Below, in pieces: positions 5,475-56,178 of a stretch of DNA of 64,000 nt (position 1 is the first letter of the stretch; each line of letters starts with the position of its first letter). The position numbers and the translations under genes were made by a program. The notes beneath the pieces are model-generated. The model saw nothing but the letters and a program-made list of their open reading frames with translations. It was not told where the DNA came from and did not search any database. The DNA comes from an uncultured Methanomassiliicoccus sp. (GTDB lineage Archaea > Thermoplasmatota > Thermoplasmata > Methanomassiliicoccales > Methanomassiliicoccaceae): contig CALUEU010000001.1 in the NCBI GenBank assembly GCA_944319735.1, forward strand, positions 62,001-126,000. Direction: 5' to 3'.

Positions 5475-6614
5475 ATGGAAAAATCAAAAGTTTATTATAC
5501 TGATTTACGCACAGTTGCGTTTGGCAATGGACTGCCTGCCAAGCTTAAAGAATTGATCAAAGCCGCTGGAATTGAGCAGATCGATATGAAAGGTAAGTTT
5601 GTTGCCATAAAGATGCACTTCGGTGAACTGGGCAACATCTCATACCTTCGTCCCAATTATGCTAAAGCTGTTGCAGACTTGGTCAAAGAGCTGGGAGGAA
5701 GACCATTTCTGACTGACTGCAATACTATGTATCCAGGAAGCCGTAAAAATGCTCTGGAACATCTGGAATGTGCATGGGAGAACGGCTTCACACCTCTGAC
5801 TACAGGCTGCCCGATCATAATCGGCGACGGTCTGAAAGGCACTGATGATATTTCTGTACCGGTTGTAGGTGGAGAGTATGTCAAAAATGCTAAAATCGGC
5901 CGTGCAATAATGGATGCTGATATCATCATTAGTCTGACTCATTTTAAAGGCCATGAAATGACAGGTTTCGGAGGTGCAATTAAAAACTTAGGCATGGGTT
6001 GCGGTTCCCGTGCCGGAAAAACAGAACAGCACAGCAACAGCCAGGCATGCATAGATGAAGAAAAATGTCGCGGATGCCGCTTGTGCCAAAGAGAATGTGC
6101 TAACAACGGCCTGATATTTGACGAAAAGAAAAAGAAAATGAGTATTGACTCTAAAAATTGTGTGGGCTGCGGAAGATGTCTGGGAGCATGCAACTTTGAT
6201 GCCATTTCCTTCGATAATTCCAGTGCCCTGGAAGAACTGAACTGCCGCATGGCTGAATATACAAAAGCTGTTGTTTATGGTCGTCCACAATTCCATATCT
6301 CGCTGGTAATAGATGTCTCACCCAACTGCGACTGTCACTGCGAGAACGATGTACCCATTCTACCAAATATCGGAATGTTCGCATCGTTTGACCCGTTAGC
6401 TCTTGATCAAGCGTGTGTTGATGCCTGCCTTGCAGCTCAGCCGCTGCCAAACAGTCAGCTCAGCGACAACATGAAGAAAGAAGATTTCGTTGATCGTCAT
6501 GACCACTTCACAAATTCCACTCCTGAGTCTGAGTGGAAAAGCTGTCTCAAACATGCTGAGAAGATCGGGCTAGGAAGCAGATCTTATGATCTGATATTTG
6601 TAAAAACGATGTGA
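5475..6614 (+). CDS. DUF362 protein with two [4Fe-4S] motifs
   Basis: Residues 1-190 are the DUF362 domain (KMHFGELGNISYLRPNY, LTDCNTMYPGSRKNALEH, then ISLTHFKGHEMTGFGGAIKNLGMGCGSRAGK). Residues 195-245 hold two ferredoxin motifs: CRGCRLCQRECANNG and CVGCGRCLGAC. The C-terminus (DPLALDQACVDACL) is also typical of DUF362. Length (379 aa) fits the family. It is probably a cytoplasmic iron-sulfur redox protein; the reaction is not known. A strong ribosome binding site (AAGGAGGAG) precedes the ATG. It stands alone, with a G/C-rich hairpin (GGGAG...CTCCC, about 6638-6664) downstream that may end transcription. Confidence 0.88.
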   Translation: MEKSKVYYTDLRTVAFGNGLPAKLKELIKAAGIEQIDMKGKFVAIKMHFGELGNISYLRPNYAKAVADLVKELGGRPFLTDCNTMYPGSRKNALEHLECAWENGFTPLTTGCPIIIGDGLKGTDDISVPVVGGEYVKNAKIGRAIMDADIIISLTHFKGHEMTGFGGAIKNLGMGCGSRAGKTEQHSNSQACIDEEKCRGCRLCQRECANNGLIFDEKKKKMSIDSKNCVGCGRCLGACNFDAISFDNSSALEELNCRMAEYTKAVVYGRPQFHISLVIDVSPNCDCHCENDVPILPNIGMFASFDPLALDQACVDACLAAQPLPNSQLSDNMKKEDFVDRHDHFTNSTPESEWKSCLKHAEKIGLGSRSYDLIFVKTM

Positions 6615-38626: not shown

Positions 38627-38951
38627 AATTTCAATTTGACCGTTAGCATCTCAATGCGATCTAGATATATGAATTATCAATCTACTAGAGTTACAAGATT
38701 TTAAAAGATGTGTGTTATTGAAACTAAAATATCATGTGACAAGTACCAATAAATGAGTAGTTGATTGAGTCATTTTTCCATTTTTAAAGAATTAGTGTGT
38801 GTCAGAAGAGGCAAATAAGATTCTCAGTTTAGGTAGATTTCCTAAACTAAGTATGAATGAAATCATCAAATTTTAGGGTTCATTTTGCTGTAATTTGAGT
38901 ATTTGCAAATGCATTTTTATTATGCAGTTAAAAATGCAATAAAATGAAATA

Positions 38952-39265
38952 ATATCATGAAAAATTGCAGATAAATTTAAATATCAAAAAACTTGGAATT
39001 TTAAAAAATATCATCTTTCATATTTTAATGAGTGATCGTTTTCGTTATACTCGCGCGTACCCGTGAGCGCGCAATAATCCCTGCCCGCTATTTTTTCCAA
39101 GTTTGCTTCATTTCCACTGGAACTGTTTTTTCGAAGATTTTTTGATCAGTTTTTCACTACCTCTTTTTGAGTTTTGATCTAAACTACGACTACATTGCAA
39201 TGCTCAATATTTTGAAAATGTTTGAGACTATTGCTCTCTCTCGAATTTCGTGCAAATACGCAAGC
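38952..39265. repeat. Tandem unit A with 48-bp GC-rich core
   Basis: The left block (38952-38985) has ATATCATGAAAAATT and a TATA-like run. The core at 39038-39085 is 48 bp, runs from GTTTTCGTTATACTC to ATAATCCCTGCC, and contains the stem GCGCGT-N7-AGCGCG. Right blocks: GATTTTTTGATcag with TTTTTCACTA at about 39137-39161, TTTTTGAGTTttgatcTAAA-CTACGAC, and TTTCGTGCA at 39246. Near 39110 it also has TTCCACTGGAA, a palindrome like the archaeal mini-ORB. Confidence 0.75.
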
Positions 39266-39434
39266 ATCGAAAATGAAAAGGAAGCAGAGCTAAGAGTGCT
39301 TACGCTTTGCATAGCAGCTTTCGATTCAATTTTCCTACTTTTCTAGAACAGTAATTTCTGCAGACTTTTCTTGTTAAAAGAGATTGCAGAAACACCTATT
39401 TTATCAAACAATCAAAATGTAAAATGTTGAAATT

Positions 39435-39747
39435 ATATCATGAAAAATTACAGACAAGCTTAAATAATTAAAAATGTAGCTCTCAGATATATCTTCATGT
39501 ACAGATATATCTACATGGGTGTTTTCGTTATACTCGCGCGTACCCGTGAGCGCGCAATAATCCCTGCCGGCGATTTTTGCGATATGCCCGAAAATTTACT
39601 CGAGTGTCTTTTTGAAAAATTTCGATGATTTTTTGATGATTTTTCACTAGTCTGCTTTCAATTTTTGAGTTAAAATACGACCACTTTGCAACACTATAAA
39701 CACCCCTAAATTACCGTCTAAATGTCTCTTCGATTTCGTGCACACGT
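39435..39747. repeat. Tandem unit B with identical 48-bp GC-rich core
   Basis: Same order of blocks as unit A, displaced by 483 bp from the left block through the core (39521-39568, identical to A over all 48 positions) and by about 488 bp at the right end (TTTCGTGCA at 39734). Between blocks the copies have diverged strongly. This pattern means selection on the core and on a few short blocks, not on protein. Confidence 0.75.
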
Positions 39748-40281
39748 AAGCTCTCAACAACGAAAAAACAAGCGAATAAGTTGCAAAAATAATTAGCCAG
39801 ATGTGGCAATGCTTCAAAAGTGGTTAAATGCAATCTCTGTAAGAGTCACGGTTGATGAAACGACATGAAATTCACCGCAAAATATACTGCTGGCTGCTGA
39901 TCTTATTTTTGCATAACAGCCAGAAATTAAGAACTTACAGTCATCAGCAATGTTGCTCAAACATGGAAACACAGATTATAGCATCCAGGAGAAGAATGCA
40001 TGAGGTGTCTAAAAACTCTGAATCTGATGAACCTAGCAAATAGCAGATCCTGTTCATCATAGGTGTGCATCATTTCTCTCATCTCATGCGTTTTAAGTCA
40101 TCAAAAACTCATCAAAAACAAGCGATTTTTGTCATTTTTCTTGAGTTTTCAAGTTTCTTTTATTTTTCCCCTTTTAAAACTATCGAAAAGCCAGATTTTT
40201 ATATTGAGTGATTCAAAAAAAGTATTGAAATACTCTTGTTAGATACGGTAATCAAGAACAAAAATGGAGGTAAGTTAAAAA

Positions 40282-40533
40282 ATGAAAATGTCAAAGAAAA
40301 ATGATTGCTTGAATGAACTTTTGAAAGGAAAAACTGCTGCAAATAGTTCATATTTAGGATTCACCAGTATTATGTTGGCAATAATTTTAATCTGTGTGAA
40401 GAATAGAATGTTTTCAGTTAAACAGCCATTCCATAGAAATTGTGCAGAATTAAGTGCCATCAAGGGTGAAAAATACCCACACTCAAGTCAAAAATCATTG
40501 TGTGATCGAAAGTACTTGGATGAGAGTTCATAA
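40282..40533 (+). CDS. Possible small membrane protein (83 aa)
   Basis: GGAGGT lies 13 bases before the ATG, and a TATA-like tttttatattg about 80 bp upstream. The product is Lys/Ser/Asn-rich with one hydrophobic segment (YLGFTSIMLAIILICVK) and several cysteines. It has no recognisable family and lies in the AT-rich gene-poor region, so it may be spurious. Confidence 0.4.
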   Translation: MKMSKKNDCLNELLKGKTAANSSYLGFTSIMLAIILICVKNRMFSVKQPFHRNCAELSAIKGEKYPHSSQKSLCDRKYLDESS

Positions 40534-51828: not shown

Positions 51829-52376
51829 AAGTTTCTGCAATCACCTGTCCAAAATGCGGAGCCCCTTCTAGATTAAACGGCCCCGATCATTTATTCATGT
51901 GTGAAAGATGTGAAACTCTCCATGATATTGAAGAAAATACATCACGCATGATCGAATATGAAGTTGTCAGGCCCGATAATGAAAATGATGATACGCAGTA
52001 TCTACCAGTCTGGAAATTAAAATCAGAATTTACTGTTAATTCTTCACAGTCTGATGGTTTTTGGTCATCAATATACAGAAAAGATGATGCAGGTAAAAGA
52101 GAGCTTAATATTTTCATTCCGGCATGGGATACTGACCCGGCATCATTCAGATCGTGGGCAATCAACCTCACAACTAATAAATGGAATTACAAAATGGGCG
52201 GCAGAATCGGAAGACATAAACGGGTTCCAGCGACAATATCTAAAAAGCAAGCTTATGAGCTGGCCGATTTCGTTGTTGTTACAATTGAAGCAGAAAAACC
52301 TGGAACGATGCAGTATCTTGATTACAACCTGAAGATACTTGACTCGTCTGTCGTGTATATTCCACAAACCTTTTGA
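51825..52376 (+). CDS. Zinc-ribbon soluble protein, last gene of SPFH operon (183 aa)
   Basis: An N-terminal zinc ribbon (CPKCGAPSRLNGPDHLFMCERCETL) is followed by a beta-rich domain with YLPVWKLKSEF, again like the YFPIW motif of the two upstream paralogues, but without membrane spans. It may be a cytosolic partner of the membrane members. ATG overlaps the upstream stop; a terminator follows directly. Confidence 0.8.
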   Translation: MKVSAITCPKCGAPSRLNGPDHLFMCERCETLHDIEENTSRMIEYEVVRPDNENDDTQYLPVWKLKSEFTVNSSQSDGFWSSIYRKDDAGKRELNIFIPAWDTDPASFRSWAINLTTNKWNYKMGGRIGRHKRVPATISKKQAYELADFVVVTIEAEKPGTMQYLDYNLKILDSSVVYIPQTF

Positions 52377-52377
52377 A

Positions 52378-52400
52378 TTGACAGTTTTCTGTCAATTTAT
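52378..52400 (+). terminator. Terminator of the SPFH/zinc-ribbon operon
   Basis: The stem TTGACAG-TTTT-CTGTCAA (52378-52395) is perfect, begins one base after the stop and is followed by TTTATTTTT. Confidence 0.75.
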
Positions 52401-52533
52401 TTTTCATTAATCATCATGAAACATAATCTAGATTAAAGAGTATAGATTGACTTGACAAAACAATATCACAGAATAAGGAAAAACCATGTCTGGATTATTA
52501 AAAAAAGTAAGAGTTTGAGCCGAGATTAATCCA

Positions 52534-52940
52534 TCAATGAATTATCTCTTTTTGAGCACTTGCGATATCAGATAATATGTACATACATGCTAATGCTATC
52601 ACACAAGGAAAGAACCATGATACATCAAATTGTGAAATCATGTCCTCTGATACGGCAACCATACCAATCATGAATATCACAGCAAGTACAATTGTTTTAT
52701 GCCAATCCGTTTCTGAAATTTAGGTACAGAGAAGATTTCTAACCATTGAACATCCCTACATACAACTATGAGTATGGTCGCGAATACCGCTATATCAAGG
52801 ATTAGCGAGAAGATTATATCCGTTAAATTATCTAATGGATATACTATAAAAGTATATGTCACCATCACTACAAATATAGATATAGAAGCCATCAGCCCAA
52901 CAATTGATGGTTTTCTTACTTTCCACCCAAATATATTTTC
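52534..52940 (-). pseudogene. Broken copy of the 130-aa membrane protein gene
   Basis: It aligns along its whole length with the intact gene at 53262-53654, and the similarity continues past the stop (agagtttgag.tgagattaa on both). The start codon is changed to ATA (52932-52934). One base is missing at about 52697 (gttttatgcc here, gtaaatatgcc in the intact copy), which shifts the frame after VPKFQKRIGI. The frame resumes in another phase with VIFMIGMVAVSEDMISQFD. Confidence 0.8.
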
Positions 52941-53261
52941 ACCCCCACATCACGTACTTTACTCTGTTTGATTTACATAGCTAAATCTAGTCATCAGTAA
53001 ATTAAGAGAATGTCTAAATCAGTTAGACTCTAATTTTAATTAAAAAGTTAATAAATTTATCTATATAAGTAAGTATCTAAAAAAATATCGATTTGTAAAA
53101 TAGACTGATCGTATTCTTATCTTACGCAGGCATAATAGTCATGCAGCGAGATATGGATATTAAATCAGTTTTAATTTAAATTGTTAACTCTGATAAAAAA
53201 AGAGTAATAATTAAAAAAAATAGATAAGAGTTTGAGCTGAGATTAACCCACATCTTGTGAT
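52941..53261. other. AT-rich spacer between the duplicate membrane genes
   Basis: About 320 bp without an open frame. The right end (53228-53250) repeats the 3' flank of the broken copy. I see no remains of the signal-peptide gene here, so only the small membrane gene was duplicated. Confidence 0.45.
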
Positions 53262-53654
53262 CTATTTTTTCTGAGCGCTTTCAACACATGATAGTATAAC
53301 TATACATGCCCATGCTATCACAAAAGGAAAGATCCATGATGCATCAAATTGTGAGATTATGTCCTCTGAAACAGCAACCATTCCAATTACGAATATAGCA
53401 GTAAGTACAATTGTAAATATGCCAATCTGTTTTTGAAATTTAGGTACAGAGAAGATTTCTAACCATTGAACATCTCTACTTACAGTTAAAAGCATAGCCG
53501 CAAATACAATCATATCAAGGACTAGTGAAATAGCAATATTCATAAAATTATCCAATGGATATAATATGAAGGTATATGCCACCAGCACGATTAATATAGA
53601 GATTGAAACTATCAGACCAACAATTGGCGGTTTTCTCAGTTCAAATCCAAGCAT
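53262..53654 (-). CDS. Small membrane protein (130 aa), four hydrophobic segments
   Basis: Short N-terminus, then four spans: PIVGLIVSISILIVLVAYTFI, IAISLVLDMIVFAAMLLTV, FTIVLTAIFVIGMVAVS and WIFPFVIAWACIVILSC, with the conserved loop RDVQWLEIFSVPKFQKQIG between two and three. It lies 19 bp after the stop of the signal-peptide gene on the same strand and is probably co-transcribed. It ends in TAG. Size and place fit an immunity or partner protein for the secreted product, but no homology is recognised. Confidence 0.72.
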   Translation of the reverse strand: MLGFELRKPPIVGLIVSISILIVLVAYTFILYPLDNFMNIAISLVLDMIVFAAMLLTVSRDVQWLEIFSVPKFQKQIGIFTIVLTAIFVIGMVAVSEDIISQFDASWIFPFVIAWACIVILSCVESAQKK

Positions 53655-53673
53655 GTTTTTTCACCCCTGTTGT

Positions 53674-54300
53674 TTATTGAGACTCCGTGTGAAGAAGTGT
53701 AACAAGAGGTATCGTTGTACTAGAAGTTATGTAGATTCCTGTTGCTACAACAAATATAATCCCATTCGGGTATAATTCTTCAATAGCTACTATTCCAATG
53801 GCTTCTAAGGCTAAATCAACTACATGTATTACTGCTGCAGATAGAAGACCTCCAGATAATACAGCACCTGCTGTTATTGCTCCAGTTGCAATTAAATGAA
53901 GTGTTGTTGAAGACATGTATATTTTATAGCCATCATAGTGTTCTGTAAATCCAAGTGAAGAAGTTTGTGCATAATATCTAATCTTTTCTACTTTATCCAC
54001 TCCTCCACCATTAACAGCTGTAGAATCAGTAGATGGCAAATACATACGCACTTCTTCAAAATCTGTAGTTGAAAATGTGTCTGTTTCTGCATCATACACT
54101 GGTATCATAATGCTAACGTAGTCCATGCTTTCAAAAGCACTTTCACTTTGAATCTCAGCCCCATTTTCCATCGAAGCCAATGCTGGTGAACCGTCTGAGA
54201 CAGCATTAGAGTCACCAGGACCTAATGCTGCAAAACAACCTACGGACGCAATCATCAAAGCAATGGCTATAGATAATACCGCTTTAGTATTCATATCCAA
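53674..54300 (-). CDS. Secreted protein with Gly/Ala-rich hydrophobic C-terminus (208 aa)
   Basis: The N-terminus KAVLSIAIALMIASVGCFAA is a signal peptide. A polar acidic section follows (about 28-125), then two hydrophobic Gly/Ala/Ile-rich stretches (LHLIATGAITAGAVLSGGLL and AAVIHVVDLALEAIGIVAI), then a third (GIIFVVATGIYITSS). The layout (signal, acidic pro-part, hydrophobic C-terminal part) resembles precursors of hydrophobic peptides such as bacteriocins, but an ordinary membrane-anchored surface protein is equally possible. Confidence 0.68.
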   Translation of the reverse strand: MDMNTKAVLSIAIALMIASVGCFAALGPGDSNAVSDGSPALASMENGAEIQSESAFESMDYVSIMIPVYDAETDTFSTTDFEEVRMYLPSTDSTAVNGGGVDKVEKIRYYAQTSSLGFTEHYDGYKIYMSSTTLHLIATGAITAGAVLSGGLLSAAVIHVVDLALEAIGIVAIEELYPNGIIFVVATGIYITSSTTIPLVTLLHTESQ

Positions 54301-55281
54301 TGCCGTCCTGTCTAATCTAGATAGCTAAAGCTGGTTCCCAGCAAATTATATATAATATCCAAATCAACTTTAGATATCGAAATAGACAAATTTACAACGA
54401 AATAATAGTATAAATATAGCAACATATGAATTATACATTTGTAAAATAGTTTAAAATTCACATATGTAATTATATATCATATCTGAAATATTATGTATAA
54501 ATTACCCATATAATATTATAAAGAAATTTATTAAAATATTGTCTGGATGATGTATAGTATTTTATTTTTAGTATTATTATTTCTAACATAAGATGTTTAT
54601 ATTAGATACATAATATTTTAATATATTTTATTTTAAGTATTTTCTGGATATCGTGTTACGACTCAAAATCTATGAAAATTAGATGACATATTCTGTGAAT
54701 TTTGATTAACAAATACACAATTATCAATGTTGAACGTATATGTACTTTATTAAGGACCGTTTTGTCCAACAATCTTAAAGATAATTGATTATATGAATAG
54801 TTAGATATGAGAAATATAGTGGATAATGATTCATATTAGAATATTTGATTAACTTACATATGTAAGAATTTCTTAAAAATGCCCACGCAGGTGTAAGCAT
54901 GACAAATGATTATATCTATTGCTTAGTATGAGAGATACAGATCACATACAAAATATGTAGTAATATGATACTAAACATGCTTAGATTTCTCCTCATTCAA
55001 AATCTTTTGAAATCTCAGAAAGATAATGCTATCAATAAGAGCATGATTGATGTAACTTAACAATTCAGATTCTGGTTGAATGGCTATTGTACATATGCAG
55101 ATTTTTTATGATCATACAACATATTTTGTCATAAGTTATTAACTGAGCACGATTAAGTTGATGTGTTGCATGTGTTTTACAGCCATTCTATATTTTTGTT
55201 TTTGTAGGATTATCTTTAATAGTATTATCATAATTGGAGTTTGAACTAAAATATTGAGTTTATATCTAAATTGTGATTAGA
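54301..55281. other. Very AT-rich intergenic region upstream of the ABC operon
   Basis: About 980 bp without any gene on either strand. It contains a perfect 14-bp palindrome CTTACATATGTAAG (54853-54866), several other ACATATG/CATATGT repeats (near 54425, 54460) and TATA-like sequences throughout. No tRNA or GC-rich island is seen. It may carry regulatory sites for the operon at 55282. Confidence 0.5.
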
Positions 55282-56178
55282 ATGGGGAATCAAAACCGAG
55301 AAGATAGGATATTAAGTTCACTACTTGAGTCTAGAGACAATAATGAACATGTCATTGATGTCCCCAAAGATCGTGTATATATTTTGATAACAAATATTGT
55401 AACTTTTTTAATCGGTATTTTGATAGTATTGCTGATATGGCAGGGATTTTCTGTTTTGTACAATGAATATATCGGCAGTTCTTTGATTTCTTTCCCTACA
55501 CCCCTGGAGGCTTTTGATCGTCTTTTTGAACTATTGTCTGGCAGCAACATGTTCGGCCTCACAATCTACGACCATGTGTTTGCAAGCCTTAAGAGATGGA
55601 CGATAGGATATCTCATCTCGGCAGTCATAGGTGTTTTGACTGGATTAATTCTTGGATACTGTACTAGATTATATTCTGTCGGAATAATCCCAGTGCACAT
55701 TCTTCAAATGATTCCTGGCCTGGCTTGGATTCCAATAGCGATGCTTATATTTGGACTAGGCGATGAGTCGGCAATATTTATCATTGCAATGACTGCAATG
55801 GCGCCGATAATCATAAACGTGTCATCAGGAATCAGAAAGGCGCCTCCCGTTATCATGAGAGTAGCCAATATGGTTGGATCCTCTAGACTTTCTATTTTTT
55901 CAAATATTCTGATACCTTATGCTTCATTAGATATCATAAATGGTTTAAGAATCGGCCTGGCCAACGGCTGGAGGGTATTGATAGCTGCCGAAATGGTAGT
56001 TGGCGTAGCTGTCGGATTGGGATTTTCCATATCTCAGGCCACATATGTTGTCGATTATGTCTCAGCATTTGTCTGCATAATGGTGATTTGTGCAATTGGA
56101 TTATTCGTAGAAAAAGTCGTATTTGTATCAATTGAAAAGTACATAAGAAGAAAGCTTGGACTTGAGGGGGGAGCATGA
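55282..56178 (+). CDS. ABC transporter permease, SsuC/TauC type
   Basis: A membrane protein of about 298 residues with a cytoplasmic N-tail and six spans. The permease loop (EAA-like region, ITAMAPIIINVSSGIRKAPPVIMRVANMVGSS) and PGLAWIPIAMLIFGLGDESAIFII match the nitrate/sulfonate/taurine importer family. I use ATG 55282; GTG 55273 is possible. It overlaps the ATPase gene by 4 bases. With the next two genes it forms a complete importer. Confidence 0.92.
   Translation: MGNQNREDRILSSLLESRDNNEHVIDVPKDRVYILITNIVTFLIGILIVLLIWQGFSVLYNEYIGSSLISFPTPLEAFDRLFELLSGSNMFGLTIYDHVFASLKRWTIGYLISAVIGVLTGLILGYCTRLYSVGIIPVHILQMIPGLAWIPIAMLIFGLGDESAIFIIAMTAMAPIIINVSSGIRKAPPVIMRVANMVGSSRLSIFSNILIPYASLDIINGLRIGLANGWRVLIAAEMVVGVAVGLGFSISQATYVVDYVSAFVCIMVICAIGLFVEKVVFVSIEKYIRRKLGLEGGA

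Follow-up and report, generated by a model that had tools for sequence, protein, structure and literature searches.

Two non-coding units in this Methanomassiliicoccus genome belong to a family of 16 repeats which probably represents a lineage-specific family of sibling small RNAs, with mini-ORB boxes attached, that has spread by segment duplication. The observations behind this reading are the repeat family itself, a shared promoter grammar, covariation in a 5' hairpin, the lack of a coding signal and an identity with archaeal ORBs at the sequence level. The window, as the whole 64,000-nucleotide stretch analysed is called here, corresponds to bases 62001-126000 of contig C1 in a genome of 1.77 Mb in 21 contigs. 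Its genes match those of Methanomassiliicoccaceae, with QueD relatives 53-68% identical in Methanomassiliicoccus-type genomes, and its GC content is 40%, with a markedly low value at positions 52001-56000 (0.33 against 0.40 window-wide).

A dispersed family of repeat units

Twin units with a spacing of 483 bp had been described in the window, and the description holds in detail. The two cores are 100% identical over 48 bp (97% when the pair is extended to 58 bp), the left blocks upstream of them share 79% identity, right-hand blocks are conserved at 39129/39620 and 39237/39725, and an ORF check found no plausible protein gene across the pair. The parts of the two units are as follows.

38931..38991, + strand: unit A upstream block, TATA box TTAAATA at 38977-38983
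About 39003-39096, + strand: predicted transcript A
39005..39026, + strand: 5' hairpin SL1 of RNA A (39005-39011 with 39020-39026)
39038..39085, + strand: core of unit A, GC hairpin with two alternative forms
39050-39055 with 39062-39067, or 39053-39058 with 39067-39072, + strand: the alternative core hairpins of unit A
39091..39096, + strand: T-run 1, predicted terminator of RNA A; T-run 2 at 39126-39131
39414..39474, + strand: unit B upstream block, TATA box TTAAATA at 39460-39466
About 39485-39578, + strand: predicted transcript B
39485..39512, + strand: 5' hairpin SL1 of RNA B (39485-39494 with 39503-39512)
39521..39568, + strand: core of unit B, identical to the core of A
39574..39578, + strand: T-run 1 of unit B; T-run 2 at 39609-39613; no ORB downstream

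When the core was sought in the rest of the genome (IUPAC pattern, up to three mismatches) 16 matches were obtained, of which the window pair makes up two, compared with none for a reversed control pattern, and the repetition is therefore far above chance. A covariance model scanned across the genome recovered 16/16 known units and no additional ones. The units fall into three subfamilies, A, B and C, which stand in tandem, always in the order A-B(-C), at about nine loci; subfamily C, together with a downstream promoter block and small gene of the same module, is additional to the twin pair originally described. The loci are listed here by contig.

A-B arrays: C1:101k (the window), C2:138k and C17
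A-B-C arrays: C1:365k and C3:189k
A or B units at contig ends: C12, C4 and C7
Further array remnant: C11
Solitary unit A: C10

A private variant is common to the A and B units of the contig C2 array (C2A and C2B), so that copies within an array look partly homogenised; they seem to convert each other, and the identity of the cores may stem in part from such gene conversion.

Homology to other arrays spans about 38832 to 40500 of the window and takes in more than the RNA units.

38832..40533, + strand: whole repeated module (units A and B, spacer, block D and ORF1), from homology among arrays
40151..40259, + strand: block D, conserved predicted promoter and leader, 9 genome copies
40282..40533, + strand: ORF1, 83 aa, strong ribosome-binding site, 5 genome copies

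Most arrays finish in block D, and a small membrane-protein gene often comes next. Block D precedes ORF1, with the ribosome site GGAGGTAA, in five arrays and short or unrelated frames in three, and it appears to behave as a promoter and leader. ORF1 contains one hydrophobic stretch, judged by eye to be a membrane segment, is under weak purifying selection (dN/dS of 0.36-0.73 in its first 55 codons) and has no convincing relatives in Pfam, related genomes or viruses. As regards a possible type I toxin-antitoxin system, the RNA units sit upstream of ORF1 on the same strand, not opposite to it. On contig C10 (C10:5000-17500; L014/L068) a solitary unit A and a block D lie about 3 kb apart with a tyrosine recombinase gene between them, and block D there is followed by a series of genes for secreted repeat proteins.

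Promoters and anatomy of the predicted RNA genes

A TATA-like block had been noted ahead of each core, and its placement is constant: from the start of TTAAATA to TTATAC there are 68 nt in every A and B unit and 67 nt in both C units, the spacing to the core being fixed although the intervening sequence is unrelated between A, B and C. A BRE/TATA matrix trained on 28 tRNA upstream regions of the same genome (consensus AAAA...TTAAATA) gave the A promoter a score of 9.19, the best in the region and in the top 0.025% of window positions, and the B promoter 6.74, in the top 0.15%. Both scores lie within the range of the tRNA promoters (1.9-13), as would be expected of the stable-RNA type.

Directly after the expected start site every A and B copy can form a hairpin, SL1, of at least 7 bp. 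In an alignment built on sequence alone (A1) an unbiased scan ranks SL1 first among all 7-bp hairpins, A and B share its register (columns 40-46 with 55-61, 8-nt loop), 96% of cells are paired over the 16 copies, and sliding the partners by 1-3 columns reduces pairing from 98% to 18-65%; shuffled segments put the chance of A and B hairpins in one common register at 0.0002. In three of the seven pairs A and B differ at both partners, compensatory changes that amount to a single inherited A/B divergence and not to many independent events. Columns of SL1 that vary within a subfamily are loop or wobble positions, all of them loop in B, and the C copies pair at 5/7 positions in the A/B register and possess a stronger alternative hairpin. 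Covariance folding thus yielded compensatory pairs for SL1, and for the core a compatible hairpin with little variation. The two forms of the latter are mutually exclusive, and pairing cannot rank them, CUCGCG/CGUGAG being paired in 100% and GCGCGU/GCGCGC in 97% of cells; SL2 has no single register across copies. Single copies have folding energies no more than modestly below those of shuffled sequences (z from -1.4 to -4.4). We also considered a long-range helix, AAACTTGGAA/TTCCAAGTTT, that would close unit A; it is perfect in most A copies, but it is broken in the contig C3 copy (C3A), absent from B and C, and its 5' side precedes the expected start site, so that it was not credited.

The core hairpin is followed by a C-rich tail and then a T-run, ATTTTT(T) coming after the core in 16/16 copies; among the tRNA genes of the genome a T-run follows 26/29 and is absent in 3. 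The limits of the unit, from TATA to T-run 2, are confirmed by substitution among the A copies, which is low inside (0-7 variable sites per segment) and high outside (35/50 upstream, 30/45 downstream). The solitary copy on contig C10 (C10A) retains just this stretch.

Structured RNAs, one of the options offered in the original prediction, are the best supported of them: promoter grammar, compensatory changes in SL1 and the T-run all speak for the idea, the amendment being that the pair are not twins but members of a 16-copy family. Each unit would be an independent gene for a structured non-coding RNA of about 95 nt, laid out as a TATA promoter, a protective 5' hairpin, a strictly conserved core hairpin, a C-rich tail and a T-run terminator. 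That the units are transcribed, that the RNAs have the ends given above and that they act in trans is what we infer, and the same applies to binding of Orc1/Cdc6 and whatever follows from it. The conserved core would be the acting part, either pairing with shared targets or binding a protein, and the divergent 5' hairpins would be stability elements. Spread within the lineage would have occurred by duplication of a 1.5-2 kb module usually ending in block D and often in ORF1. This reading is favoured because the islands of conservation coincide with the promoter, the transcript, the box and block D.

A putative initiator box

A mini-ORB-like TTCCACTGGAA had been predicted at about 39111. It was located at 39112-39122, where 0.05 would be expected per window, and is part of a longer match on the minus strand.

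39106..39123, - strand: ORB-like Orc1/Cdc6 box GTTCCAGTGGAAATGAAG, 18-nt match, without the GGGGT string

The box agrees at every position with the left 18 nt of ORB3 of Ca. M. intestinalis, listed as GTTCCAGTGGAAATGA-AGGGGT in Table 2 of PMC4153887, and holds the dyad half of an ORB; the genome's ORBs are similar, not identical, to those of that species, so that the genome probably comes from a related species or strain. All nine A and C units carry GTTCCAGTGGAAATGAAG with no more than two mismatches, and the B units and block D are without it. A genome scan for the 18-mer with up to three mismatches returned 14 matches, against none for the reversed control: nine in arrays, two flanking the probable oriC beside cdc6, two at single ORBs that have GGGGT, and a last one with three mismatches and no GGGGT. 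Array boxes read GAAGCAAA/GAAGCAAT where the oriC and single boxes read GAAGGGGT, and since GGGGT is missing the array box is termed mini-ORB-like and not a full ORB. Throughout 14 other genomes of the family GGGGT follows nearly every examined match, most of these lying in oriC-like clusters, and the same 17-mer marks oriC in relatives. On the strength of the matches at home and in these 14 genomes, it is very probable that the array motif is a true sequence of ORB type, in which the G-string has been lost or was never present. Dispersed ORBs of the form TTTCAGTGGAAATGAAG were seen in relatives of the same family (G006 C3:234898, C9:45567 and C13:9860; G010:C7:32430), with GGGGT after them in the loci read and a common CCAG(C/T)ATTTTAT-like stretch ahead of each; it is possible that these are Orc1/Cdc6 sites at promoters.

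A replication origin was another of the early suggestions. The A unit does have a true-looking Orc1/Cdc6 box, but there is no G-string and B has no box. The probable oriC, an ORB pair beside cdc6, lies away from the arrays at C2:251.0-251.3 kb, Cdc6_C matches fall at C2:252464 and C2:163585 with none on the window's contig, and a second Orc1/Cdc6-like gene is present in the genome (weak Pfam match). Each A-B array has one box and not paired ORBs flanking AT-rich DNA near cdc6, and GC skew has no sharp switch at the arrays. With G-string, clustering and a nearby cdc6 all missing, an independent chromosomal origin at the arrays is unlikely, and for a partition or anchor site no positive evidence emerged from the analysis.

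It may be asked whether the arrays serve first of all as DNA sites for the initiator, either boxes that titrate or store Orc1/Cdc6 in the manner of bacterial datA/DARS or accessory origins in which the T-rich DNA beside the box is the unwinding region. The presence of the 18-mer in 9/9 A and C units, the restriction of the other close genome matches to the oriC pair and two single ORBs, and the recurrence of the 17-mer at oriC of relatives make this the most serious competitor, but we regard it as unlikely. The GGGGT that oriC and single boxes have is lacking from the array box, B units and block D have no box at all, an insertion sequence (IS) lies inside the box of the contig C11 array and splits that array, cdc6 is not beside the arrays, and the promoter and SL1 features are left unexplained. 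The RNA reading, for its part, gains no support from the ORB, which is a DNA signal. Less probable again is a joint function, in which RNA gene and Orc1/Cdc6 mini-box would act together as dispersed stations coupling replication initiation to gene control; initiator binding would then set small-RNA output, or transcription through the box would evict or load the initiator, and the arrays would correspond in archaea to the loci that titrate the initiator in bacteria, their output being a small RNA. 

Under the favoured reading of the units as sibling RNA genes, initiator binding just past the A and C RNAs would probably modulate their transcription or termination, or titrate the initiator; the box may accordingly serve in titration or in regulation of A and C, or may be a relic.

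Mobility and distribution

An IS with inverted ends CGGAACCTCCGCA / TGCGGAGGTTCCG, separate from the module, has repeatedly inserted in the arrays and explains the contig ends inside them. The 6-bp target duplications TTTGAA, common to contigs C12 and C4, and TTAAAA, common to C17 and the start of C2, indicate that the two members of each pair are most likely parts of a single array that an insertion has divided. The IS was found at the ends of contigs C12, C17, C4, C7 and C11 of G000 and in L009 (reverse strand) at about 5813-6167, and a MITE-like form of approximately 350 bp adjoins the contig C3 array.

The repeat itself might be a non-autonomous mobile or selfish element, spreading by itself or through a trans-acting enzyme, its conservation reflecting recent copying and gene conversion. 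The copies are indeed dispersed, private variants are shared within arrays, and in the relatives L031 and L032 the genes dph2, mtxX and queD, here the neighbours of the module, are adjacent with no insert, from which it follows that the module and a PAP2-type gene were probably inserted in this lineage. Nevertheless we think this explanation improbable. Module ends vary by locus, and in the comparison of the arrays no terminal inverted repeats or target duplications were apparent for the module. Conservation is confined to the promoter-RNA-box stretch and block D, and as the neighbouring repeat DNA has diverged around these parts copying alone is insufficient; nor does simple decay of a mobile repeat account for such conserved islands. 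A widespread mobile repeat had been named as the finding that would undo a selected function; dispersal was found, but within the range of the searches it was limited to a single lineage, and the interior of the repeat is conserved in the manner of a gene.

No counterpart was found elsewhere. Rfam at gathering scores gave no match in the window apart from one tRNA, and with the threshold relaxed to E 1 nothing was matched over 38900-40300. The exact core (one core variant) was not found in GTDB 220, blastn detected no homologue in 40 relatives, the nearest being of the same family (Methanomassiliicoccaceae), and a covariance model run on 146 other genomes of the order gave no credited match, the lone weak one (E 0.06) being in a small incomplete genome. 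The family is absent from the phages and plasmids searched, and IMG/VR yielded neither core, block D nor box. Thus the search that had been suggested gave 16 copies at home and none in the relatives searched.

Coding potential of the core

It is very improbable that the units are small protein genes whose core encodes the peptide segment FVILARTRERAIIPA, conserved between variable ends. A single frame does stay open across the core in all the copies, and in B units this frame has an ATG ahead of it and the few substitutions downstream of the core are synonymous apart from those in one copy (C1bB), but A would require GTG and C a distant TTG, the frame has no ribosome-binding site, in contrast to ORF1, and one codon varies as I/V/S/P/L. 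A coding core was rejected because variable sites fall mostly at codon positions 1 and 2 (6/3/5 by position in A, 6/2/4 in B), dN is about equal to dS in A, and Pfam has no match.

Relation to known systems

Bacteria are well known to have multicopy small-RNA families, whose siblings (Qrr, AbcR, OmrA/B and RyhB) are encoded by paralogous genes (PMC4211561). The putative RNAs resemble them in being paralogues with a common core and differing ends, and differ in that 16 putative copies are carried in repeated modules and in an archaeon. In limited paper searches this RNA family was not reported, and neither an archaeal family as large nor one joined to replication-initiator boxes was found; likewise neither the RNA family nor the pairing of RNA and box matched the databases searched. 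If expressed, the units would provide a 16-gene RNA family for study in a methanogen related to human-gut species.

Closest in organisation is the Brt/Trp system of Bartonella (PMC5387305), in which nine genus-specific, homologous intergenic RNAs of predicted structure each have behind them, in tandem, one small gene from a family of paralogues; here too homologous RNAs of putative structure stand in tandem with a small gene. The likeness is one of organisation: the Brt RNAs are about 200 nt long and the proteins are of helix-turn-helix type, whereas here the RNAs are predicted to be about 95 nt, with two or three of them at a locus, the small gene would encode a membrane segment, mini-ORBs are attached and the domain of life is another. 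With respect to archaeal ORB and mini-ORB boxes (PMC4153887, PMC3984812, PMC5663688), the 18 nt of the arrays equal the left part of the Methanomassiliicoccales ORB, but the array boxes are without GGGGT, dispersed and not clustered round cdc6, and lie at the 3' end of putative RNA genes. In Saccharolobus Orc1-2 is a non-initiator Orc1 that acts as a gene regulator (PMC9738581), and a second Orc1/Cdc6-like gene exists here too, a likeness at the level of the gene. If Orc1/Cdc6 does bind the mini-ORBs, control of archaeal initiator availability by dispersed sites, as known for bacterial DnaA, would become testable.
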